This document shows, in pieces, positions 3,001-62,857 of a DNA stretch of 64,000 bases. The stretch lies in contig WHVD01000043.1 in NCBI GenBank assembly GCA_015178975.1, positions 558,001 to 622,000 of the forward strand, given 5' to 3'. The DNA is from Hysterangium stoloniferum (Eukaryota > Basidiomycota > Agaricomycetes > Hysterangiales > Hysterangiaceae). Under the pieces are notes generated by a model, which saw only the letters and a program-made list of their open reading frames with translations, did no database searches and was not told where the DNA came from. Position 1 is the first letter of the stretch; each line of letters starts with the position of its first letter. A program made the position numbers and the translations under genes.

Positions 3001-3945
3001 CTAATTAGACCCCACCGATAGATGAGTGGAAGGTGTGGCGACCACGCAAAGGAAAGAACGTGTGGTCAGATCTAACCACTCGAGCCTGTAACTGATGGAT
3101 TCGTCATTGGTCGAGTCGCGCATTACGACACAATGTGGAAGGAGAGAAACGAGCATGGGGATAGTATCGAGGCTGCGTACTGTGGTACATGCGGATTCGG
3201 GCTCGGAAGATCCAGCTATCAGCTTCATAGTCAACTCGATTATTCTTTCGCCAGACGCCAGGAGAGACCAATTAGGACTCGTGTGCGTCAGAATCAGACT
3301 GGTAGGAAAGGTTCATAGGCGGACGTAAGACGATGCAGGTAGGGAAAATATTGTGAACGTACCCTACGATGCGCCCAATGAACGAAGACACCACATCCAG
3401 CTCGTTGATGTGATCGGTGAGAAGCGTGCTGTCGTTGAAGAAAGTTTGCAAGGAGTAAATACTCCAATACAGTAAATTTGATGTCTCCAAATCAAGATAA
3501 AGTGTCAATGACGCTATATGCATGTTTATGTCGTCCAATACAACCCTCAATGCCGCTGCAGCAAAATCTCGACACCATGTATCTTGGTGGATGCAACACA
3601 CGAGAAGCCGTATAAATGGGAGAATTAGTCGCCGGTGACTTTGTCTGTTATGGTTTTGGTGGGAAATATGAAATGATGTCAGGTCGCGACGTACGCTTGT
3701 AACCAGAATTCTAAGTAACCTCTGATCGCCGTGAGCTCCTCTACAGATAGTTGACGCTCGCGGCAGATCGCTTCCACGATAAACCTAGGGCCGGAAATGA
3801 GTGAGAGATCACGATAACCGGCGATTTGTATGAGAAATTTTGATGCAACCTCATCCAAGGTGGTGTGTAGCGGTGACTTGACTAAAACGTTGTAAAGTGA
3901 TGACTTAATCGCAGTTGACGCATAGGAAGGAACAGGTGGCGACAA
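3001..3945 (-). pseudogene. R1 gene relic (exons c1-c3), 5' truncated
   Basis: Minus strand. Part of c1 (SSLYNVLVKSPLHTTLDEVA), then c2 (LRVVLDDINMHIASLTLYL and STLLTDHINELDVVSSFIG), then c3 ending LSVGSN. Intron 3 and intron 4 sites match the intact copies. The sequence leaves R1 order near 3922, where c1 joins module H, so b1 and b2 are absent. It is probably a recombination product. Confidence 0.75.
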
Positions 3946-24001: not shown

Positions 24002-24690
24002 TCAAAGGAGGAGGGAGAGGGAAGGAAAGTGTAAGATGCACCAACTGGAGGAAAGAGACAAGAGGACGATCAGAAAAGCACAAAGAGAAAGGACAGGGTA
24101 CACGCACTCGCTGGAGGAAAGAGAGCAGAGTCCGATTAGAAAAGGACCATGAGGAGAGGGTAGACACACTCGCTGGAAGGAGAGAGGAGGCCGATCAGAG
24201 GGGGAGAAAGAGAGGAAAGGATACACGCACAGCCTGGAGAAAAGAAAGAGGTGGCCAATCAAAGGAGGAGGGAGAGGGAAGGAAAGTGTAGACACACCAA
24301 CTGGAGGAAAGAGACAAGAGGACGATCAGAAAAGCACAAAGAGAAAGGACAGGGTACACGCACTCGCTGGAGGAAAGAGAGCGGAGTCCGATTAGAAAAG
24401 GACCATGAGAGAAGGAGAGGGTAGACACACTCGCTGGAAGGAGAAAGGAGGCCGATCAGAGGGGGGAAAGAGAGGAAAGGATACACGCACAGCCTGGAGG
24501 AAAGGAGTGAGGCGATGAGAGGATGATGAAGAAAGGACGGAGTAGACAGACCAACTGGAGGAAAGGGAGAGGAGATCAATGAGAAGAGGACGAAGAGAGA
24601 TGGAATAGATACATGCACAGTCTGGAGGAAAGAGAGGAGGTCGATCAGAAGAGGAGGAAGAAAGAAGGAAAGGTAGACGGACCAACTGGA
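24002..24690 (+). repeat. Purine-rich higher-order tandem array
   Basis: Units of about 52 bp carry 'ctggaggaaagaga' and 'cgatcagaaaag' variants. Five units form a 257-bp block that starts at 24002 and again at 24259 with the same opening text; looser units continue to about 24690. The long minus-strand frames here (for example LSFPLPPP) are by-products of the repeat. It occupies the space between the accessory gene and the right TIR. Confidence 0.9.
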
Positions 24691-25092: not shown

Positions 25093-25195
25093 GGACACTC
25101 CATAAAACTTTCGTCGCTCTTCCCCGAATTTGAGGCGGGTATGTAGGTCTACGACTCAGACATGAGTGTTGAACACATCGACGATGAGGTATCCC

Positions 25196-25903
25196 TTACC
25201 TCGCTAAATCAATAATGTCTTGAATTAGTCTTCCCAATCTTGGCAGGGTGAGACGCTTGTGTAGAATCTTGCTAAAGGCACCGTTGTCTTGAGACAATTG
25301 ACTCATTATTTGCCCGTATATTGTCAGCTTTGCCATCAGTGAAGCTTTCTTTGCACTGTGGAGGACTTTCATCCCAACCCTTTCTAAGCCGACTCCACAG
25401 TAATACCCGGGGCTAATTCCAATACTTGAAGATGTCACAAGACTCCGTGAGATCATTCCCCATTCATCGGCATGACAATGATACGAGCTGAGGTTGGATG
25501 TCGTATTGGTGGATATCTGAACAACAGTGGGTGGGTCATGGTAGGTCGGTTCCCCTTGACACTGAAATATGCTGCATATGACACAGATCACCCAGAAATA
25601 GCATTTTACTTTACTCACCAACTCGCCAACCCAGACCTCTATATGGCTTGCAGATAGTTGTATGTGCTGCTCGTCATCAGGGGTCCGATAACATAAATCA
25701 TGGCCGGGTTCGTTGCAAACCCATCGTTCTCGGAGCTTCTCCCTGAATATCTCTCTCATCCCCGTCTTAATGATCTGGTCCCGTTGCTCTGAACTCAATA
25801 CACCTGGGGAAACCAAGGGGGGTGGCTCCTCAACGCCTTCAAGGTGGGTCTGAACCGTTGCCTCATCGTGATTCCCCAAAGCTGTCTCGTTGAAAGCAGA
25901 CAT
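25196..25903 (-). pseudogene. R1 gene, b1-b2 half, separated from c exons by KDZ
   Basis: Minus strand: b1 25903-25619 and b2 25561-25200, intact (MSAFNETALGNHDEATV; CNEPGHDLC; CQGEPTYHDPPTVVQ; to IIDLAR). The stop overlaps the intron 2 donor GTAAGG. The c half is at 17710-16801, 7.4 kb away. It was probably whole up to the KDZ insertion or the loss of its c3 end. Confidence 0.8.
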
Positions 25904-31243: not shown

Positions 31244-31924
31244 TGGACGAATTCTCCACTGCTTTTTGAGTCTTCTCTGTGATTACAAGTCGAGTATTGA
31301 AGGTGATTCCTGTCCCTGTAATTAATCTTACCTTTTTTTGCTCAAATATTGTTCTTACAGTGAAATTGACCCTCTATTCTGGGCCGTTTTACCTTGATTG
31401 CTGTTTCTATTGTTACTGGAAGATATAACATATCTCCAGGTTTGTATTGGTACCTTCCCTCATGCTATTAAAAATATTTATGCATTATTTTTCGCATTTT
31501 TAGGCTATTTTAGACCCATTTGTCTGCATTTCCTTTCTGCCACTCTCTACTGTGTTTGTGACCACTCCCTATAAGTATAAGTGGAGTATTGAAAGTAAGT
31601 CCTTTCCCTGTAATTTTCTTTGGCTTATTTTAGTCTAATTCACTACAACTTTCTGCCCCTCCTCTCTTCCCCCTCTCTTGCAGGGTTTCTCTCTCTGCTG
31701 CTACTGCTGTGATTGCTATATTAGTATGGATTGAACACCTGAGCGTAATTGGGAGGAGGAGTGAAGGCAGCATAGGGCACAATTGCAAATGACATCTCCA
31801 TCTGATCGTCATCGGCGTTTAGCTGTGAATTCTAATATACCACCTCCTCTTCAACCATTCCGAGATCTCCATCTTCCTGTTGGTAGAGGTCAATCTGATA
31901 ATCCATTTTTGGTTGCTCAGTGCT

Positions 31925-32065
31925 CAGCCAGGTGGCTCTACTGCAAGTGGCTCTGCTGCAAGTGGCTCTGCTACAAGTGGCTCTGCTGCAGGTGGCTCTG
32001 CTGCAGGTGGCTCTACTGCAGGTGGCTCTGCTATAGTTGGCTCTTATGCAGTGGCTCTTTTGCGT
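31925..32065 (+). repeat. 15-bp coding tandem repeat
   Basis: About eight units of the type 'ggctctgctgcaagt', encoding GSA(A/T)(S/G), within the Helitron reading frame. Confidence 0.9.
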
Positions 32066-32439
32066 AGGCAGTATGAAGATTTGCCACCATTACAACCTCT
32101 TAGGCAGGGTCGTGGACGGAGAAATCCAGCTGCTCAATTGCAGCGACCAATTTTGCAGTTAGCACCACATATCCAGCAGGGTCATCAACCAGCAAATGCA
32201 CCTGTTCAGCCACAGGCACCAGGTCATTTACGAGGCAATGTAGCTGCTCAACTTCAGCAACCACTTTATATACAACAGGGTGCACCTGCAGATGAAGCTG
32301 TCCAGCCTGCAGTTGGCTGTGCTGGAGTAGCTACTCTGTATGCTCAGTATGCTGCTTTACCACCATTAGACCAACCTGCTCAACTGCAGCCACAAATTTT
32401 ACAGTCAGCACCACATCCACAGCATGGTGATCAACCAGG

Positions 32440-32965
32440 AAATGTAGCTGCACCACTACACTATCACCATCCACAGCAGCAACAACCACCTATTTTCCAG
32501 TGGGAACCACCACAGCATTACCATCCACAGCAACAACAACCACCTATTTTGCAGTGGCAACCACCACAGCATTACCATCCACCTGGACATCCAGCTCCAC
32601 AACAACAACAACAACCTATATTGCAGTGGGCACCACCACAGCTTCACCATCAACCTGGAAATCCAGCTCCACAACAGCAACAACAGCTACAGTTAGTACT
32701 ACCTCCTGCCATTCCACAACTCCAGGCACAGGTACCTATTTTGCAGTTACCACCACCACAGCATTATCATCCAGCTGGAAATCCAGCTCCACAACAAAAA
32801 CAAGCACCTATTTTGCAGTGGGCACCACCACAGCTTCACCATCTACCTGAAAATCCAGCTCCACAACAGCAACAGCAACTACAGTTAGCCCCACTTCCAG
32901 TTATTCCCCCACCTCCAGCTATTCTCCCACCTCCAGCCATTTTACAGCCTGCAGCTATGCCTCCA
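32440..32965 (+). repeat. Pro/Gln-rich coding repeat in Helitron ORF
   Basis: Imperfect units of about 60-75 bp encode PAPQQQQQ, PILQWAPPQ and HYHPPG. Likely disordered and prone to slippage. Confidence 0.85.
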
Positions 32966-34584
32966 CCTCCCATTCCACAATTACCTATTGGACGGCAACC
33001 AGTTGTGGAGGACAGGTTTCAAAGACATGACTTGGGACGTATGGACATACAGTGTTCAGACTGTGGAGCTTTGCACTGGATGGATGAGTGGATCTCAAAT
33101 AGCTCTAAGACACATCCAAAATTTGGCAAGTGTTGCAAGCGAGGAAAGGTGGCCCTCCCAATACTTGAGCCAGTCCCTCACACTTTAAGGTCTCTCCTGG
33201 AGGGTAATACAGACAATAGCAGAGAATTTCTCAAGAATATTTGTGCCTATAATAATGCATTTGCATTTACATCACTCGGTGTCAATTTGGATGACCTGTA
33301 TTGCAAGGTGGTGGTGGCCCATATGTCTTCAAAATCCATGGTGAATTGTATCACCAGCATGGTGCCTTGATTCCTTATGGAGAAGGTGTATCATGTAGTT
33401 ATGCTCAGCTTTACATCCATGATCCTGCATTGGCACAGGAGGATGGACTGAGGCAGGCATTGCAGCAGAGGCAGAATCACAGGGCAAATAGAAACCTAAA
33501 TAACCAAACTTTTTCTGACTTGCAGGATATGATAGAGCAATATAATCCCTTTATACAACTCTATCGCCAGGCACATGAGCGATTGAGGACACAGGCAGAG
33601 ACTCCAAGGCTACATGTCAGGCTGAGCTACAAAGCTTTTAATGATCCCAGACGGTACAATCTTCCAACCGGTGATGAACTTGCCATCATTCTCCCTGGAG
33701 ATGGTGATACAGGTCATGGTGACCCAAGGGATATTATTGTTCAGAGGAGAGGGGGCTAGTTCCATCATGTGCATGATGCACAAGCCATCTATACACCCCT
33801 TCATTATGTCATGCTCTTTCCCAGGGTTGAGCGTGGTTGGTCATGGGACATTCCCTCTGCCAATCAAAATTGGCAGCCCCAGCCTGGACAGCAGGATGAA
33901 GAAGGTGAAGATGAAGATAAAAGTCGGAAGGTGTCCCAATGTGAATATTATGCCTATCGCCTATTTCCCAGAGCATACAAAGCCATGACCCTTTTTTATG
34001 CACAAAAGCTATTCCAACAGTATATTGTCAATTCCTGGGCAGTAACAGAGTAGTGCAGATTGAGATTTCTCAGGGATAATCAACCAAGGTTACGTGCAGA
34101 ACTCTACAACCAGGTGGTCGATGCCTTTACACATGAGGATGTTAACACAGATCCCAATAGTATTGGTCAGAGGGTCATACTCCCTTCTACATTTACTGGC
34201 AGTTCAAGGGATATGAGACAAAGTTTGCAAAATTCATTTGCAATTGCATGAAAGTATGGCAATGCCAGCTGCTTCATCACCATGACAGCCAATTCCAAGT
34301 GGAAAAAGGTTACTGATGAATTGCTTCTTGGCCAGACTCCAGCTGATCGTCCTGATTTAGTCTCCAGGGTCTTTGCTGCCAAGAAGGCTAAGTTGCTCAA
34401 GATGATCACAGAGGACCACATCTTTGGTAGAACAGTAGCCCATATCCATGTCATTGAATTCCAAAAGCGTGGTCTTCCACACATGCACTGCCTCATATGG
34501 TTTGATGACCAGAATAAGCCAAGGACACCAGAAGATTGTAATGTATTCAGGGGATTCTCTTAGATAGCTCAATATATGCTATAG

Positions 34585-35331: not shown

Positions 35332-36830
35332 CCTCCAGTCATATGGGCCCAATAGCCTGATGCCAAGTCCTCCCTAACCCAAGTCCGCTACTGTTACACC
35401 CACCCTCCCACACTGCCAGCAAGGCAATGTGCAACTCTCGGCGGACTGACTCAACTGTGTAGTTCCATAACCCCTTGCTCCAACTCATCAAGTTTGTCGC
35501 TCCAATCCTGCCCACCACTCCCAATATCCATTCCATCGACATGGTCGCGTCCTGACCCCTTCCAACCCGCATTGGGGCTTCCTGTGCCGTACAATGTTTG
35601 CTAGCCGTAGTAGCAATACTACTAGCTTGCACCATCCTTTCCTGCGGCGCAGCAATAGGTTCAATCCGCTGAAGAAGTGACCCCTCAGTAGAAGAACCGA
35701 CCCTCTGCTTCTTTCGTTTTCCATGGTGGCCACGACTACTACCCTGTTCCCTGTCACGCTGCCGTGGAGCCATCCCACATGCCTCTAATCTGTCCACCAA
35801 TGCCACCAACTAATTCTGCTCCCTCCACACGCGCGTTTCAATAATGTGTTGGCAGCAAGTCCTGCACGTCTCTATATGGAAGCCAAGTATTTTGCCCGGT
35901 ATTCCACACGACCTCAAACAAGGCATCAGCGCCTTTCCCAGTGTGAGCCACAATCTTATCCACGATCCAGTCCCTAGATGATTGGCCAAACCCCGGAATC
36001 TGTTTCAGCTGCCTGCCAGGAAATAGACGATTGTCATTCAGGATGTGGATATGCAACAAGGATGCATGAAACGATGGGTTAATCCCTTGTCTCTTTAACT
36101 CGGGGGACAGTTCCAGCTCATAAGTGGCCCCCAGCTCAAGTTCACGAATGATCTTGAATGGCCCAATATACTTGGGTACTAGCTTTCGTGTGTGATGCTT
36201 CGGCAACCGTAAGTTCTTTGTAGATAAATATACGAGATCATTGACTCTGAAATCAACAGCCCACCTGTGTCGATTGGCCTGCCTTGTCTGCTTCACCCTA
36301 GCGATGAGGATTTCATCGTGGGCAGTCATAATTGCCAATTTCATTCACTCTGCAAAATCCTGGATGCCAGGGTACGTTGTGTTCTTCTCCCAGATCATTG
36401 GACGAGGCATCCGACCATAATTCAGGAAAAAAGGAGAAAAACCTGTAGTTTCGGATGTAGCGTTATTCATTGCGAACTCGATAGCAGGCAATTTCGAAAC
36501 CCAGTCTCGCTGATTTGGTGCTACACACTGCTGCAACATTTGCATCATAGTCCGATTCGCTCGTTCGGTGGCTCCATCAGTCTGAGGGTGATACGCCGAT
36601 GACATCCACAACTCTACTCCCATCAGCCGATGCATCTCTCTCCAGAATATGCTTGTGAACAGTGAGTCTCTGTCAGTAACAATCCTCACTGGCAATCCAT
36701 GCAACTTATAAACATGTTCGAATATCACTTCCGCCATGTGAATAGTGGTATAGTTGGTCCATGCGGGAACCAGATGGACCATACACATTAAATGGTCGAT
36801 GATTACGCAAATGCTGTCGAACTCCCCAAG
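34585..36830 (-). mobile_element. Ty3/gypsy chromovirus, 3' part only (fossil)
   Basis: Minus strand. Parts seen: the end of the integrase core (36780-36345; RIVTDRDSLFTS, SSAYHPQTDGATERANR), an integrase C-terminal region with a chromodomain-like end (36344-35838; YIGPFKIIRELELGATYELE, NTWLPYRDVQDLL), a tail of unknown role (35809-35339), a polypurine-like GACTGGAGG and a 3' LTR. Gag, protease, RT and RNase H and the 5' LTR are missing. Broken. The upstream edge meets a lone R1 c3 exon near 36830. Confidence 0.88.
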
Positions 36831-37075
36831 GCATAGGCACAATTTGGTCGTACGAACTCCGATGGACTGAGCATGGCGATGGTATCGAGGCTGCGCACTA
36901 TAGTACACCCAGATTGTGACTCGGAAGATTCAGCTATCAGCGCCGGAGTAACCACCATTATTATCTCAGCAGAATGAAAGAGAGGGTAATTTGGACTCGC
37001 TTCCATCATAATCAGGCCTGTACGACAGTTTCATAGGTGGATGTAAGATGGTGCTATAAGGTAAAATAATGTGAA
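36831..37075 (-). pseudogene. Lone R1 exon c3-like fragment
   Basis: Minus strand: MMEASPNYPLFHSAEIIMVV, ALIAESSE and RSLDTIAMLSPSEFVR, with the same shortened end as 7.2 kb. It faces module A. Confidence 0.6.
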
Positions 37076-37565
37076 CATACCTTACGATGGACTTAATGAG
37101 CGAAGACACCACATTCAGCTGGTAGATGTGTTGCAATTAAGGGCCTATGTGTGTTCAATACTTGGGGGGGTATCTATGATTCCCTCAGCAAAGAATCAAT
37201 TCCATTCGGCCATCCAGGTAATAATACAGCTTGCTGTATGTATGTATGACGTGATACGCGGTTATATGTACAATTTGTCAATACAAATTCTGATGGACAC
37301 GCAAAAATCGAAATATTTCTAAGCCAGATTTTTATGTACCTCAATAAAATCTACAACGAGAACTTTGGTCTTACGTCACTCTTTGTCTTGCTCAGACGTT
37401 GCACAAAATTCAAGCCGATTGATATGGCAAGGGTGAAGGAAGAAATCACGTTGCTTACCATTAACCGGAGACTATCACTTGCGCTGGGTTTCTCCTCATT
37501 GAAAGGTTGATAAAAATAAACAGGCAGCACGCAGTCCTTCCAGAAAAGGTTCCAGGTTGACGCTA
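37076..37565 (+). pseudogene. R1 module A, copy 4
   Basis: The conserved phase reads IYNENFGLTSLFVLLRRCTK, FKPIDMARVKEE and TRRLSLALGFSSLK-type text. Located about 0.4 kb before the intact R1 gene and in the same direction. It may be a separate upstream gene or an upstream exon. Confidence 0.5.
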
Positions 37566-37904: not shown

Positions 37905-37958
37905 TGCCCCATAAAAACCCGGCACCCCGTCTAGTGTAAGTACGACTGCTACGCACAA
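37905..37958 (+). promoter_or_regulatory. Probable core promoter of intact R1 gene
   Basis: 'cataaaaacc' at 37910-37919, about 40 bp before the ATG, followed by the conserved leader 'agtacgactgctacgcacaa'. Confidence 0.5.
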
Positions 37959-39804
37959 ATGTCTGCTTTCAACGAGACAGATCTGGGGAATCACGATGAG
38001 GCAACGGTTCAGACCCACCTTGAAGGCGTTGAGGAGCTACCCCCCTTGGTGTCCCCAGGTGTATTGAGTTCAGAGCAACGGGACCAGATCATTAAGACGG
38101 GGATGAGAGAGATATTCAGGGAGAAGCTCCGAGAACGCTGGGTTTGTAACGAACCCGGCCATGATTTATGTTATCGGACCCCTGATGACGAGCAGCACAT
38201 ACAACTATCTGCAAGCCATATAGAGGTCTGGGTTGGCGAGTTGGTGAGTAAAGTAAAATGCTATTTCTAGGTGATCTGTGTCATATGCAGCATATTTCAG
38301 TCTCAAGGAGAAGCGACCTGCCATGACCCACCCACTGTTGTTCAGATATCCACCGATACGACATGCAACCTCAGCCCGTATCATAGTCATGGCGAAGACT
38401 GGGGAATGATCTCACGGAGTCTTGTGACATCTTCAAGTATTGAAATTGGCCCCGGGTATTACTGTGGAGTCGGTTTGGATAGGGTCGGGATGAAAATCCT
38501 CCACAGTGCAAAGAAAGCTTCACTGATGGCAAAGCTGACAATATACGGGCAAATAATGAGTCAATTGTCGCAACGCAACGGTGCCTTTAGCAAGATTCTA
38601 CACAAGCGTCTCACCCTGCCAATATTGGGAAGATTACTTCAAGAGAGTGTTGATTTAATGAAGTAGGGATACCTCAGCGTCAATTATTGGATACTTGAAA
38701 TACTTATGTCTGAGTCGTAGACCTACATACCCGCCTCAAATTCGGAGCAAAGCGAGCAGGATTTTGGATGATTCCTATGTGTCTTCACTTCGCATGAAAG
38801 GCCATATTTCCCAACTTATGCTATGTTTGGCTTCGGCCTTCCATTCCTGCCCCGGTGTCTATTGGCCAGCTAGACACGCGTCAACTGCTATGACGTCATC
38901 ACTTTACAACGTTTTAGTCAAGTCACCGCTGCACACCAACTGTGATGTTGCATCAACATTTATCATACAAATCGCCGGTTATCATGATCTCTCAAGCATG
39001 TTCGGCCTTTCGCATATCGTGGAAGCGATCTGCCGCGTTCGTCAACTATCTGTAGAGGAGCTCACGGCGATCAGAGGTTACATTGAATTCTGGTTACAAG
39101 CGTGCGTCGCGACCTCACATCATTTCATCCTTCCCACCAAAAGCATAACAGACCAAGTCACCGGCGACTAATTTTCCCATCTGAACATCCTATACGGCTT
39201 CTCGTGTGCTGCATCCACCAAGATGCATGCTTTCGAGATTTTGCTGCAGCGGCATTGAGGGTTATATTGGACGACATAAACGTGCATATAGCGTCATTGA
39301 CACTTCATTTTGATTTGGAGACATCAGATTTACTGTATTGGAGTATTTACTCCTTGGAAACCTTCTTCGACGACAGTATGCTTCTCACTGATCACATCAA
39401 CGAGCTTAATGTCGTTTATTCGTTCATTGGGCCCATCGTCCGGTACGTTCACCATATTTTACCTACCTGCACCGTCTTACATCCGCCTATGAACCTTTCC
39501 TACCAGTCTGATTCTGACGCACCCGATTCCATATGGGGATCTCCTGTGGTCTGGTGAAAACATACTCGAGTTGACCCTGAAGCTGATGGCTGCATCTTCC
39601 GAACCCGAATCCGCATGTACCACAGTACGCAGCCTCGATACCATCTCCATGCTCGTTTCTCTCCTTCCACATTGTGACGTAATGCGCGGCTCGACCAATG
39701 ACCAATCCACCCGTTACTTGCTTGAACGTTTAGATTTCACCGCGCGTTCTTTCCTTTCTGTGGTCGCCACACCTGCCATTCGTGTATCGGTGGGATCTAA
39801 TTAG
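37959..39804 (+). CDS. R1 gene, intact five-exon copy (525 aa), unknown function
   Basis: Exons: b1 37959-38243, b2 38301-38662, c1 38760-39101, c2 39152-39442, c3 39507-39804, 1578 nt (526 codons with the stop) and no internal stop. Introns are 57, 97, 50 and 64 bp, GT-AG, phases 0, 2, 2, 2, as in the copy at 13794-11920. Intron 1 carries an in-frame TAG in this copy, so splicing is needed. b1: MSAFNETDLGNHDEATV and CNEPGHDLC. b2: HDPPTVVQIS and GPGYYCGVGLDRVGMKILHS. c1: TAMTSSLYNVLVKSPLHTN and VRQLSVEELTAIRGY. c2: LLVCCIHQDACFRDFAAAAL. c3: SACTTVRSLDTISMLVSLL, ending RVSVGSN. No known domain, signal peptide or membrane segment recognised. Confidence 0.78.
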
Positions 39805-40500
39805 ACCCCATATCAGTGTTGGAGGAACATGGTTGCCTTGACAAAGGTCCAATTGGACACCCTTCCCAATCATTTCTCTTCAATACTGCCGATACATCTC
39901 AACCAAACCAGGAGGAGCACAATCCCGTCGCCCTTTAATTAATTCACTTTGCAACCAGATTTGAAAAAATGTATTAAGATATAGTTTGAGCCAATGTAAG
40001 AGCGCATATAGTCACTTTATACCATCGCCACGAACTCTGCAGCTTGTATACATGCGTTGAATACATTTTGAGGCACTAGCCTCGGCCAGACTAACATCCC
40101 AATCATTAATGACACTCGTTTTAAATAAAATATCAATGGAGGTAGGAAAAATGGCTCCCCTGTCGCCATTTCGATGTGTGTCTCCTTCAGGCTGATCATA
40201 CCTTCAGCCAGTGTACAATCAACAAGATCCACAATATTAAAACCGAGAGCCTTCACACCAACCGAGTCAATCTGTTGCGCGACTTCCTTAAACTAATACT
40301 CTTTCATTGAAAACTTGACAATACAGTTGCCATAGGTCCATCAAATATAAGAGCGAATACAGTCACTTTTAATCACTGCTGCGAGCTCTGCATGTTGCAC
40401 GCATTGATCCCATCCATGCATTGAATACAGTTGGGGGCACCACCTGTGGGTAGACTGACACACATGGATAAATGACAATCATTTCAAACAGAACGCGGAT
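39805..40500 (+). repeat. R1 module D downstream of the intact gene
   Basis: Starts after c3 with 'tgttggaggaacatgg'. It has two blocks of the form 'gtaagagcgcatatagtcacttt...ctgcag' followed by 'gcrttgaatacatttt', which look like short introns each followed by an LNTF..GTSLGQTNI-type exon. Phase between blocks is unsettled, so no CDS is called. Confidence 0.5.
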
Positions 40501-41315
40501 TCGAGAGTTCTCTACGGCCTCTTTGGTATCGTGGAAGCAATCTGCCATGTGCGTCAACCATCTGTAGAGGATCTCACGCCGATCAGAGGTTACGTTGAAT
40601 TCTGGTTACAAGCGTGCGACACCATTTCATCCTTCCCACGAAAACCATAACAGACAAAATCACCCCCAACAACTTTACTCGTATGGATATACTACACAAC
40701 TTCTCGTGTCTTGCATCCAAGATGCATGGTTTCGAGATATTGCTGTAGCAGTATCGAGGGTTATATTGAAGGACATAAACATCCATATAGCGTCATTGAC
40801 ACTTCATATTGATTGCGGGACATCCACATTCACTGTATCGGAGCATTCACTCCTTGCAAACCTTCTTCAACGACAGCACGCTTCTCACCGCTCACATCAA
40901 CCAGCTGAATGTGGTTTCTTCGTTCATTGGGCCCATAGTACGGTACGGTACGTTCATAATATTTTACCTTATAGTACCGTCTTACATGCGCCTATGAAAC
41001 TCTCCAACCAGTCTGATTCTGATGGAAGCGAGTCCACATTAACCGCTCTTGCATTCTACCGAGATAGTCATGGCGGTTACTCTGAAGCTGATAGCTGGAT
41101 CTTCCGAGCCCGAATCTACGTGTACCATAGTGCCCAGCCTCAATACCATGGCCACGCTCGTTTCTTTTCTTCCACAGTGTGACAAAATGCGTGGCTCGAG
41201 CAATGTCCAATCCATCAATTACTGGCTTAAGCTTTAGGTTTCACCGCGCGTTCCTTCCTTTGCGTGATCACTACACCTTCCACTCATGTGTCAGTAGGGT
41301 ATAGTTAGACCCCCC
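40501..41315 (+). pseudogene. R1 gene relic (c1 part, c2, c3)
   Basis: The sequence enters c1 at 'ctctttggtatcgtggaagc' and lacks about 35 bp around intron 3. c2 reads VSRVILKDINIHIASLTLH and c3 follows intron 4, then VRSLN-like text. It lies tandem to the intact gene in the same direction and is disrupted. Confidence 0.65.
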
Positions 41316-42200
41316 ATATCAGTGTTGGAAGAACATGGTTACCTTGACAAAGGTCTTGCATCATCAATTGGACAAACTTCCCAATCATTTCTCTTCGATA
41401 ATGCCGACACATATCGACCAAATTACGAGGAACCCAATAGCGTCGCCGGTTATTCAACTCACTTTGCAGCCAGGGTTGCAGATGTTATAAAGCTATATGA
41501 TTTGGCCTATGTAAGAACACACAGTTATTTTGTATTATCGCCGCCAGCTCTGCAGTTGTCCCCACAAATGTATTGAACACATTTGGCTGTGCCTAGAGTA
41601 ACATCCGAATCATGAACGATACTTGTTTTAAGTTAAGATATCACTGAATGTCTGAAAACGGCTCTCCCCCGTCGCCATTCGATGCATTGAATACACTTGG
41701 GGGCACCACCCGTGGCTAGACTGACATGCTACTTATAAATGACAATCATTGCAAATAGAACGCGGACTTAAGAGTCGTTTGGACCTACATAAGTCGACTC
41801 AATTTGAAAGCAACCATGGTCACTTGTAATGAGCAGTGCGAGGTTTTCTAGACTGGTGTTGAATATATTCCGAGGACTACTCGCTGAAATCACATCGCAT
41901 ATACTAGCGGGAACAAGGTCAATCGAATACCACTAGGACGTATCAAAGAAGGCGGTCCCCCCGTTATTCTCGTGTCATTTCTTTGGGAGAACTGGAAGCC
42001 GGGCCAAAACAGTGAACAATAATTTACTCACTATCCCGACATTTCCTTTACTCCTTGCATTTATGCCGACTGGGGTTCATTCCACCAATTGACATGTTTG
42101 ACTGATTTTATTTTGAGGAGTAGCGAAACTTGGTCCAATTTAATATTAAAGAGGGCATCGACCAGAACGGTGGGCCTCTTGCACGATAGTTGCCGTCACA
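41316..42200 (+). repeat. R1 modules D and H
   Basis: An 84-aa frame at 41322-41576 (LEEHGYLDKGLASSIGQTSQ, YSTHFAARVADVIKLYDLA) is one candidate D exon; the same DNA in other copies is also open in a second phase. H spacer follows to about 42200. Confidence 0.4.
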
Positions 42201-42554: not shown

Positions 42555-42930
42555 CTGATTATGAAATTCCACTATCAGCGCCAGAGTAACCACCATTATT
42601 AGGTCGGCAGAATGCAAGAGAGGGTAATTTGGACTCCCTTCCATCAGAATCAGACTTGTACGACAGTTTCATAGGTGGATGTAAGGCGGTGCTATAAGGT
42701 AAAATAATGTGAACGTACCTTACGATGAACCCAATGAGCGAACCACATTGAGCTGGTAAATGTGTTGCAATTAAGGGGCTACATGTGCTCAATCCTCGGG
42801 GGCCTATATATGATGCCCTGAGCAAAGAATCAATTCCATTCGGCCATCCAGGTAATAATACAGCTTTCTGTATGTAAATATGACGTGATACGCGATTATA
42901 TGTACAATTTGTCAATCAAAATTCTGATGG
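42555..42930 (-). pseudogene. Lone c3-like fragment facing a module A start
   Basis: A truncated c3 piece (SDGRESKLPSLAFCRPNNGG) with intron 4 (42721-42660), then the inverted module A start (LSKESIPFGHPG on plus). It breaks off near 42930, where divergent R1 sequence begins. Confidence 0.5.
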
Positions 42931-48920: not shown

Positions 48921-49589
48921 CAAAATGAAATTCTGATAGAGAACGGGCGATGTTTATGATTGTTGGAATACGAAGTGAGTCTCGTTACAACGGATAAGGA
49001 CTACAATACATGTATCGTCCTTATATGTATACGCCTAATAACTGCTTACTAATATAGGCGTATGGTCCGTGCTCCTTGTTGCTCGCATATCAGATTCCCA
49101 AAATCCAACAATGTTGAAATAGACTCGTGCGCCCAAGCTTAAGTTAAACTTACACAACGATACTAAACAACACTGTCCCATCCCGTATCAAGCTTATATG
49201 ACAGTACCCAGCTACTGTGTCCCAACTGTATATCAGGTCTAGAATCTGACAGCGATGAGTTGAGTGCAAATGTCACCTACCAGTTCACTAAATCCGAGCT
49301 CATTACATAATGGATAGTTTCACACTTTAGAATTCTCGTTGACAATGGTCGACTTCAACATCACCGCTGCCTTCTATCACCGTCGTTTTTTGCTGCCGGC
49401 CGCCTAATATTATCATCGTTCTTTCCACTGTCACCGTTGCCGTCGACATCGCCGCTGCCTTCTATCACTGTCGTTTTTCGTTGCTGGCCGCCCAATATTA
49501 CCGTCGTTCCATCCACTATCACCTCCGCCGCTGCCCACTGTCGCCGCCGCCGCTGCCCACTGTCGCCGCCGCCGCCGCCGCCCATATCA

Positions 49590-53987: not shown

Positions 53988-56153
53988 ATGTCTGCTTTCA
54001 ACGAGACAACTCTGGGGAATCACGATGAGGCAACGGTTCAGACCTACCTTGAAGGCGTTGAGGAGCTACCACCCTTAGTTTCCCCAGGTGTATTGAGTTC
54101 AGAGCAACGGGACCAGATCATTAAAACAGGGATGAGAGAGATATTCAGGGAGAAGCTTCGAGAACAATGGGGTTGTAACGAACCCAGCCATGATTTATGT
54201 TATCGGGCGCCAGATGATGAGCAGCACATAGTACTATCTGCAAGCCATATTGGGGTCTGGGTTGACGAGTGGGTGAGTAAAGTAAAATGCAATTTCCATG
54301 TGATCGTTGTCACATGCGGCACATTTCAGTGTCAAGGAGAAGCAACCTGCCATGACCCACCCACTGTTGTTCAGATATCCACCAAGATGACATGCAACCT
54401 CAGCCCGTATCATCGTCATGGTGAGGACTGGGGAATGATCTCACGGAGTCTTGTGACATCTTCAAGTATTGAAATTGGCCCCGGGTATTACTGTGGAGTC
54501 GGTTTGGAAAGGGTCGGGATGAAAATCCTCCACAGTGCAAAGAAAGCATTGCTGATGGGAAAGCTGACATTATACGGGCAAATAATAAGTCCATTTTCTC
54601 GCGACAATGGTGCCTTGAGCAAGATTCTACACAAGCATCTCACCCTGCCAAGATTGGGAAGACTGATTCAAGAGTGTGTTGATTTAGTGAGGTAGGGATA
54701 CCTCAGTGTCGATCATTGGATATGTTGAGATACGAAGTAATCTATAACAATATACTCAGTCTCGTATAAAGTAAACGAAAGACTGTATTCTATAATTGCT
54801 AACCTATAACAATATACTAATAAGAAATCAGTATCAGTTATGAAGCATTAATTCTAGAATATCTACTAACCTCAGTCTCGTATAAAGTAAACGAAAGACT
54901 GAGGAAAACTTTTCTAACTCAGAAGTATAGCATATATAGAACTTTTGACACCGCATACCCATCCGGCAGTTGTGGACCGTAGTGGACCTAAACACCGTCA
55001 TGTGACACAGACGCGTCGCGCTAATATTCCAACAGGATACACTCGAAATCCTTACGTCTGAATCGTAGACCTATATACCCGCCTCAAATTCGGAGCAGAG
55101 CGAGCAGGATTTTGAATGATTCCTATGTGTCTTCATTTCGCATGCAGCAGAGCAAAGGCTATACTTCCCAACTTATGCTATCTTTGTCTTCGGCCTTCTA
55201 TTACTGCCCCGGTGTCTATTGGCCAGCTAAAAATGCGTCAACTGCGATTACGTCATCACTTTACAACGTTTTAGTCAAGTCACCGCTGCACACCACCTTG
55301 GATGAGGTTGCATCAACATTTATCATACAAATCGCCGGTTATCATGATTTCTCAAGCATTTTCGGCCTTTGGTATATCGTGGAAACGATCTGCCGCGTTC
55401 GTCAACTATCTGTAGAGGAGCTCACGGCGATCAGAGGTTACTTTGAATTCTGGTTAAGAACGTGCGTCACGACCTTGCATGATTTCATCTTTCCCACCAA
55501 AAGCATAACAGACAAAGGGACCGGCGACTAATTTTCCCATCTGAATATCTTATACGGCTTCTCGTGTCTTGCATCCACCAAGATACATGGTTTCGAGATT
55601 TTGGTGCAGCGGCATTGAGGGTTATATTGGACGACATAAATGTGCATATAGGTCATTGACACTTCCTCGTGATTTGGCGACATCATGGGGAGTATTGACT
55701 CCTTGCAAACCTTCTTCCATGACAGCACGCTCCTCACCGATCACATCAACCAGCTGAATGTCGTTTCTTCGTTCATTGGGCTCATCGTCCGGTACGTTCA
55801 CCATATTTTACCTACCTGCACCGTCTTACATCCGCCTATGAACCTTTCCTACCAGTCTGATTCTGACGCACCCGATTCCAGACCGGGATCTCCTGTGGTC
55901 TGGCGAAGGAATAATCGAGTTGGCTCGGAAGCTGATAGCTGGACCTTCCGAGCCCGAATCTGCATGTACCACAGTACGCAGCCTGGATGCCATCCCCACG
56001 CTCGTTTCTCTTCTTCCGCATTGTGACATCATGCGCAGCTCGAGCAATGACCACTCCATCAGTTACGCGCTGCAGTGTTTATATTTGACCACACGTTCCT
56101 TCCTTTGTGTGGTCGCCACACCTGCCACTCGTGTGTCGGTGGAACCTAATTAG
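53988..56153 (+). pseudogene. R1 gene copy, all exons, frame broken in c2
   Basis: b1 53988-54272, b2 54330-54691, c1 55108-55461, c2 from 55512, c3 to 56153 (VSVEPN). b1, b2 and c1 are open. Intron 2 is 416 bp because it holds solo LTR 54723-55034; its own donor and acceptor are kept. In c2 a single base is missing near 55652 ('catataggtcattgac' for 'catatagcgtcattgac') and a further deletion lies near 55680, so the protein would stop early. Confidence 0.8.
54718..55039 (-). mobile_element. Solo LTR, family LTR-E (copia-like), with TSD
   Basis: The element spans 54723-55034 (312 bp), TGTTGAGATACG to TATTCCAACA, with the perfect duplication GGATA (54718-54722 and 55035-55039). The block CTCAGTCTCGTATAAAG is duplicated inside, as in the LTR-C family. 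It lies within R1 intron 2. Fossil. Confidence 0.9.
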
Positions 56154-62456: not shown

Positions 62457-62857
62457 TGTTGAGGAAGAGAGACACCGCATATACTTCTATATGCACTAGG
62501 GACGATCGAATCCGAAATCAGGCAAACGAATATTTCTTTTGCCCCCATCACATCCTCTGTTCTAATCACAGTCACATTGACTGTCACACACATATATATT
62601 GGGCGTCAATTATAGTTTTACCTCAGTCCGTTATACTACGAATATACGAGACTGAGGTGAGCTCTCTATTTATCAAGTAGACAATTTCCTTAACTAACCT
62701 CACATGTACTAGAACTACATTCTAGGTACCTATTGTGGAGTCCATTATACTACGAATATACGAGACTGAGAACTACATTCTAGGTACCTATTGTGGAGTC
62801 CATTATACTACGAATATACGAGACTGAGAACTACATTCTAGGGTATCACTTTTAACA
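62457..62857 (+). repeat. 5' LTR of copia element (401 bp)
   Basis: TG...CA ends. Related to solo LTR 9894-10267. Internal tandem duplication of 'ctacattctaggtacctatt'. Confidence 0.85.

Follow-up and report, generated by a model that had tools for sequence, protein, structure and literature searches.

A large recombining family of five-exon genes with a putatively constrained N-terminal module in Hysterangium stoloniferum

We analysed a 64,000-bp window of the H. stoloniferum genome (contig C367, 558001-622000; the assembly comprises 111 Mb in 554 contigs). By the evidence of its sequence, the feature at 37959-39804 on the plus strand of the window is a protein-coding gene. It has five exons separated by four introns and belongs to a set of several hundred related copies or fragments in the genome. 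We are confident that these copies represent a real coding family under selection. The best reading of the data is that they probably form a recombining, conflict-type gene family that spreads at the DNA level.

The initial annotation placed two intact copies in the window, at 37959-39804 on the plus strand and at 13794-11920 on the minus strand, hereinafter designated copy A and copy B, respectively. Both are present. Removal of four GT-AG introns in phases 0, 2, 2 and 2 leaves both copies open, and exons 1, 2, 4 and 5 have the same lengths in the two (285, 362, 291 and 298 bp), as had been described. The gene model is not fixed by two copies alone, because the intron lengths first proposed allow four open models for copy A and six for copy B. 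Of the near-full-length copies listed for the genome, 29 in number, 27 were aligned (C11:240405 and C367:352559 were left out), and the alignment bears out introns 1, 3 and 4. Specifically, intron 1 is 57 bp long in 26 copies and has its GT in all 27 and its AG in 26, a single copy lacking the acceptor, while introns 3 and 4 have GT and AG in every copy. An intron 2 of 97-99 bp is ruled out by the same alignment. The acceptor proposed for it lacks AG in 8 of the 27 copies, whereas TAG followed by ACCTA is found at the corrected acceptor in all 27; intron 2 is therefore 58 bp long in copy A and 60 bp in copy B. Its donor GT is present in 26 of the 27 copies and missing from one, the length of the stretch varies mostly between the donor and the conserved TAG, and a TAG/A acceptor lies at the same aligned place in a sister subfamily (see below). 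The products, given as 525 and 534 aa in the initial annotation, become 538 aa for copy A and 547 aa for copy B.

In the corrected model, the exons of copy A are 37959-38243 (residues 1-95), 38301-38662, 38721-39101, 39152-39442 and 39507-39804 (including the stop codon), all on the plus strand. They are separated by intron 1 at 38244-38300 (57 bp, phase 0), intron 2 at 38663-38720 (58 bp, phase 2), intron 3 at 39102-39151 (50 bp, phase 2) and intron 4 at 39443-39506 (64 bp, phase 2). The exons of copy B are 13794-13510, 13452-13091, 13030-12623, 12572-12282 and 12217-11920 on the minus strand, with the 60-bp intron 2 at 13090-13031. A TATA-like sequence, CATAAAA, read directly at 37910-37916 (plus strand), 49 bp 5' of the copy A ATG, may serve as a promoter element, and the same motif is found 5' of copy B. 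In copy A, and in 10 of the 12 sister copies aligned, intron 1 is interrupted by an in-frame stop. It thus offers no obvious conserved alternative frame of the sort that poison and antidote proteins made from one locus by alternative starts, as in wtf-type meiotic drivers, would call for. The five-exon layout aligns in divergent paralogs, some of which lack a splice site, and in the more complete sister copies; the intact divergent members retain GT and AG. In loci L045 (C420) and L047 (C539), exon 3 reads straight into exon 4, and intron 3 is therefore absent there. The same two loci carry a partial duplicate of the start of exon 2 upstream (NGNTSYHDLP...).

The reading frame is kept in a large share of the copies. 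The initial annotation counted two intact copies among about ten. That holds for the window, where copies A and B are the full-length intact ones found. Of the 27 aligned copies, 12 (44%) have every splice site and an uninterrupted frame between ATG and stop, and the other 15 are broken. The 27 were drawn from the highest-scoring hits, a choice that favours intact copies. In a neutral simulation with substitutions only, 22% of copies are stop-free at 48 changes (half the estimated divergence) and 6% at 97 changes (the full estimated divergence); frameshifts are not included in these figures, whereas the observed 44% counts them too. Length changes point the same way. Among the 27 copies, 44 exon lengths depart from the mode once two truncated last exons are set aside, and 33 of these differences are divisible by three; of the 24 such differences in introns, 3 are divisible by three and 21 are not. 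Counted as distinct gap events, multiples of three make up 26 of 40 in exons, 4 of 20 in introns and 3 of 37 in the upstream stretch. Three of the more divergent members (L036, L039 and L043) are intact; L035 has no interruption but lacks a stop at the family position, whereas L032, L033, L034, L037 and L041 are broken and L038 is a partial sequence with stops. L040 is nearly identical to L039.

The family is large. A DNA search of the genome with the gene, in which the best 40 of 1415 candidates were scored, gave at least 48 matches, 29 of them spanning at least 1751 of the 1846 bases; because only the best candidates are scored, such copy lists are lower bounds. A DNA pattern from exon 1 of the window subfamily has 418 matches with up to three mismatches, 148 of them exact. 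A generic, approximate motif query (best 150 of 427 candidates scored) exposed the sister subfamily, many of whose members lie on C522 (1.61 Mb) and others on C8, C106 and C149, and a pattern made for that subfamily has 495 matches. Reversed controls of both patterns have none. The two sets overlap, and the total number of exon-1 sequences, broken copies included, is therefore between 495 and 913. The initial annotation considered that this could be a young family, which is not borne out. A sister-type product joined by hand (L044) matches the C47 member at 44% identity along almost its entire length, and the five-exon layout is common to relatives down to about this identity; the family is therefore coding and not young. 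In the sister subfamily, 3 of 12 copies are clean in all five exons. A literature search over titles and abstract openings, in a corpus from which subscription journals are mostly absent, returned no description of this gene family, and a search of viral contigs returned 41 pattern stretches and no relative. As to a possible subtelomeric position of the arrays, four tandem TTAGGG units occur at 11 sites in the genome and at none on C367, C388 or C522, a result that speaks neither for it nor against it.

One member appears to have been joined to another gene. At L046 (G000:C24:503200-506300), a protein kinase sequence apparently continues the frame of family exon 1 and the first part of exon 2; one ORF piece matches PF07714 (E 6.4e-12). 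The N-terminal module was considered as a recurrent kinase partner and this was rejected: among the 145 matches listed, only C24:503201-504052 has both. Since its kinase part and C165:54731 are alike at 86% identity, the locus looks like a one-off chimera.

Selection differs along the gene. The Nei-Gojobori dN/dS is 0.82 between copies A and B, has a median of 0.88 over the 12 intact copies (0.70-1.18) and is 0.54-0.84 when six more divergent members are compared in all 15 pairings. Codon maximum likelihood was run on ten recent and seven divergent copies, both sets including copies A and B. In the ten recent copies, omega is 0.495 for residues 21-100 (p 0.0057), 1.49 for residues 101-215 (p 0.066), 1.70 for exon 3 of these intact copies (p 0.0013) and 1.24 for exons 4-5 (p 0.075). 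In the seven divergent copies, omega is 0.483 for residues 21-100 (p 7.9e-5), and the remaining three regions give 0.82-1.12, none significant. When multiplied by ten for the ten codon-model tests, the p values of both motif results and of exon 3 stay below 0.06. These results are qualified by the choice of intact copies and by recombination (see below), which violates the premise of one tree on which the codon model is built. They support purifying selection on the N-terminal module (residues 21-100) of the window subfamily, and they suggest diversifying selection on exon 3 in that subfamily only. Specifically, the sister subfamily shows no exon-3 excess (omega 0.996, n=6) and has a weakly constrained exon 1 (omega 0.70, p 0.035, n=12; motif part 0.71, p 0.088). 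Singleton counts give a weaker signal: 1.15 over all regions, a single deviation among the eight regions at residues 284-352 (p 0.03), and no difference between the motif region and the others (Fisher p 0.23). Outside residues 21-100, the codon models show the predicted protein evolving at or above the neutral rate while the frame is kept.

A dN/dS near 1 over all copies had been named in advance as evidence against a working gene. For the whole gene, omega is 1.21 in the ten recent copies (p 0.014 against 1) and 0.945 in the seven divergent ones (p 0.40), values that in part bear this out and that relaxed constraint could also give. We do not take them as refutation, because the copies stay in frame and residues 21-100 show constraint. 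The same values are what would be expected of a passenger, a once-functional gene amplified within a satellite-like tandem repeat and now drifting. The 15 broken copies among 27, the small share of clean sister copies and the pieces of transposable elements nearby also suit a passenger. The in-frame bias of exon indels and its absence from introns, the constraint on residues 21-100 in two data sets (which share both window copies) and the intact copies at deep divergence argue against it, and we consider it unlikely.

The protein resembles no known family in the databases searched. Copy A has no match in Pfam at E up to 10. Among six members searched against Pfam, the sole match is a PRP39 HAT repeat in one member (E 0.25), and two sister-type members give one match only (E 0.23). 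The best NCBIfam match is at 0.21; in the PDB, copy A has one match at 1.5 and the profile none; the PHROG matches (best at 0.022), each to a single member, are taken as chance. With no credible relative in Pfam, NCBIfam or the PDB, the family remains unrecognised, as the initial annotation had it. Six members share an invariant C63-x4-H68-x2-C71-x8-H80 in exon 1, and H87, W91 and H103 are invariant in them as well. Metal binding by this N-terminal Cys/His module, perhaps of zinc, is our guess. By a crude test, the best 19-residue Kyte-Doolittle mean is 1.35-1.69 in the 12 intact products, and the five that reach 1.64-1.69 do so at differing places, which is borderline. Helical periodicity is clearly higher than the beta signal in exons 1 and 5 and slightly higher in exons 3 and 4, but not in exon 2. 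The variable body may be mainly helical, though the evidence for this is weak.

A conserved N-terminal module and intact divergent members would also be expected if these were simply host genes that have multiplied, with housekeeping or stress functions and no part in conflict. Hundreds of copies are generally unusual for housekeeping genes, however, and so is an exon 3 above neutrality, seen here in one subfamily. We regard an ordinary host family as improbable.

The amplified unit contains the gene together with noncoding flanks, as comparison of the copies shows. The initial annotation argued for copying at the DNA level, and indeed introns and flanks have been copied along with the gene. 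A 1061-bp downstream stretch starts about 10 bp past the stop at many places among the matches listed (at least 51 matches, best 40 of 581 candidates scored). In the window it is represented at 39811-40488 (plus strand), a downstream part of the unit that lacks a long conserved frame and matches the corresponding stretch at L010 with 87% identity. Over 21 aligned downstream stretches, no frame is open in most copies beyond a few adjacent windows. An antisense ORF with the motif VIDLTSDE was considered as a second gene of the unit and dropped, the motif lying in sequence 3' of some units only. On C388, four units are arranged head to tail with a spacing of 4.5-4.7 kb and homology over most of the unit. 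C316 and C547 share 7.5 kb at 99.2% identity, which reflects either a recent duplication or the other haplotype. An intact paralog stands alone on C47. The locus L042 (G000:C2:848800-854600) is an internally deleted copy adjoining a long minisatellite, which can be read through without stops in more than one frame and encodes SSPPLPTII-like repeats.

Copies exchange sequence across contigs. When the gene is cut into two contiguous halves, pairwise distances from one half correlate with those from the other at 0.51, compared with a mean of 0.88 for 30 random halves (minimum 0.85), and the nearest neighbour changes between halves in 18 of 27 copies, compared with 10-14 with random halves. Copies that are 12% apart share 218 identical bases. 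Overall, the tree of the 27 copies does not sort them by contig (13 contig changes, shuffled mean 13.2), though one supported clade of three is all from C367. These comparisons show exchange, probably by gene conversion or crossing-over, which are not told apart here. With exchange across contigs, the lack of contig structure is explicable without transposition.

This bears on the suggestion, made in the initial annotation, that the gene belongs to an undescribed DNA transposon. There the roughly 540-aa protein would be a transposase or the main protein, and the gene with its flanks the element. Hundreds of copies or fragments, flanks that move with the gene, singletons on other contigs, copies that do not cluster by contig and many broken copies all suit a transposon. 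However, no transposase, reverse transcriptase, Rep or integrase domain is found in six members and two sister-type members (Pfam, E up to 10), a search that novel transposases would escape, and there is no second long ORF in the 21 downstream stretches. Three dispersed units, L041, L042 and L043 (on C46, C2 and C47), end at different positions relative to the gene, and inspection of their boundaries by eye reveals no shared terminal features and no evident target duplication; CTAG-like junctions of the Helitron type differ between copies. The head-to-tail array on C388 and a contig structure whose absence recombination can account for also argue against a transposon. The suggestion is therefore unsupported, and we think it rather unlikely to be correct.

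The window contains further copies in mixed orientation. BLAST within it finds about a dozen further copies and fragments, in fair agreement with the roughly ten first counted. A 5' part (exons 1-2 and the start of exon 3) lies at 25114-25903 on the minus strand and is 93% identical to copy A, and a 3' part lies at 3001-3921 on the minus strand (88% identical). A near-complete copy at 53988-56153 (plus strand) consists of two blocks, 53988-54733 and 55041-56153, with about 300 bp between them. Directly 3' of copy A, a 5'-truncated copy occupies 40515-41684 on the plus strand (77% identical to 39003-40176 by BLAST). Upstream of copy A, an antisense fragment of exons 4-5 at 36869-37130 (minus strand) is the reverse complement of 39393-39654 at 73% identity (BLAST). 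At 15 loci (L009-L013 and L015-L024) the gene is likewise preceded by an antisense match. Fragment and gene together could give rise to double-stranded RNA and silencing. A second antisense exon 4-5 fragment upstream of a gene copy is at 42563-42764 on the minus strand.

The window has some further features. The stretch 35838-36908 (minus strand) is a Gypsy-type retrotransposon remnant with a Tf2-1-like SH3 domain (PF24626, E 2.3e-12) and, beside it, an integrase core match under its cut-off. A proline/glutamine-rich ORF and the next ORF at 31880-33759 (plus strand) have no transposon match in Pfam; we take them to resemble a Helitron N-terminal region. Tandem repeats at 1009-1271, 24045-24673, 49358-49579 and 62711-62842 have periods of 14, 67, 88 and 22, and 58 bp, and Rfam has no match within the window. 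On C367, a Ty1/copia-like reverse transcriptase fragment, recognised by eye, occupies the same unit position at two places (L010:6264-7326 and L027:6266-7328, minus strand).

In the recombining conflict-type family that we favour, the genes would be encoded by the fungus, have no transposase of their own and spread via unequal crossing-over, segmental duplication and non-allelic gene conversion. The product would be soluble and intracellular, with a variable body behind a conserved N-terminal module that may bind zinc. A constrained module, a fast-evolving body and recombining copies form the pattern of genetic conflict systems, and the pattern here would fit a protein of a recognition or defence repertoire, or of a selfish killer or drive family. 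A role in conflict or recognition is a tentative proposal that draws on the evolutionary pattern. Conflict systems in basidiomycetes are, to our knowledge, little known at the molecular level. If expressed, the family would be among the larger fast-evolving fungal gene families known to us, and one without a known domain. Repeat masking would probably hide such a family as repeats, which is a warning for annotation.

Three known systems offer comparisons. The family resembles basidiomycete DNA transposons and Helitrons in copy number, dispersal and a setting rich in transposable elements, but its gene has no transposase or Rep domain in the members searched, and no defined ends are seen in the three dispersed units inspected by eye. 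Fungal NLR and allorecognition repertoires are likewise expanded and rapidly diversifying, with a conserved N-terminal part and a variable rest; unlike them, the members searched here have no nucleotide-binding domain in Pfam and no repeat domain, save the PRP39 HAT match (E 0.25) in one of six. The third system is the wtf killer meiotic drivers of Schizosaccharomyces. Their products are membrane proteins; the hydropathy of the product here is borderline. In two published accounts, intron-bearing wtf copies are duplicated at the DNA level and show non-allelic gene conversion, coding length changes and rapid amino-acid change; 9 of the 25 genes in the S. pombe reference are pseudogenes, copy numbers reach tens per genome (25; 83, 42 and 5), and the surroundings are LTRs or 5S rDNA (PMC6526906, PMC9562144). 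By pattern and not by sequence comparison, the family here shares with wtf, as described there, duplication at the DNA level with introns, pseudogenes, length change and fast evolution, and recombination between copies is found here as well (0.51 against 0.88). It differs in having hundreds of copies or fragments rather than the tens per genome given in those accounts, and in a window without an Rfam match rather than the LTR or 5S rDNA setting given there. We do not file the Hysterangium family as a wtf member, the resemblance being one of pattern. A bolder and quite improbable extension is that it could be an unrelated, wtf-like basidiomycete counterpart of killer and recognition repertoires, with hundreds of recombining genes occupying large parts of several contigs, in which the variable body would set specificity and the Cys/His module would supply a common action.
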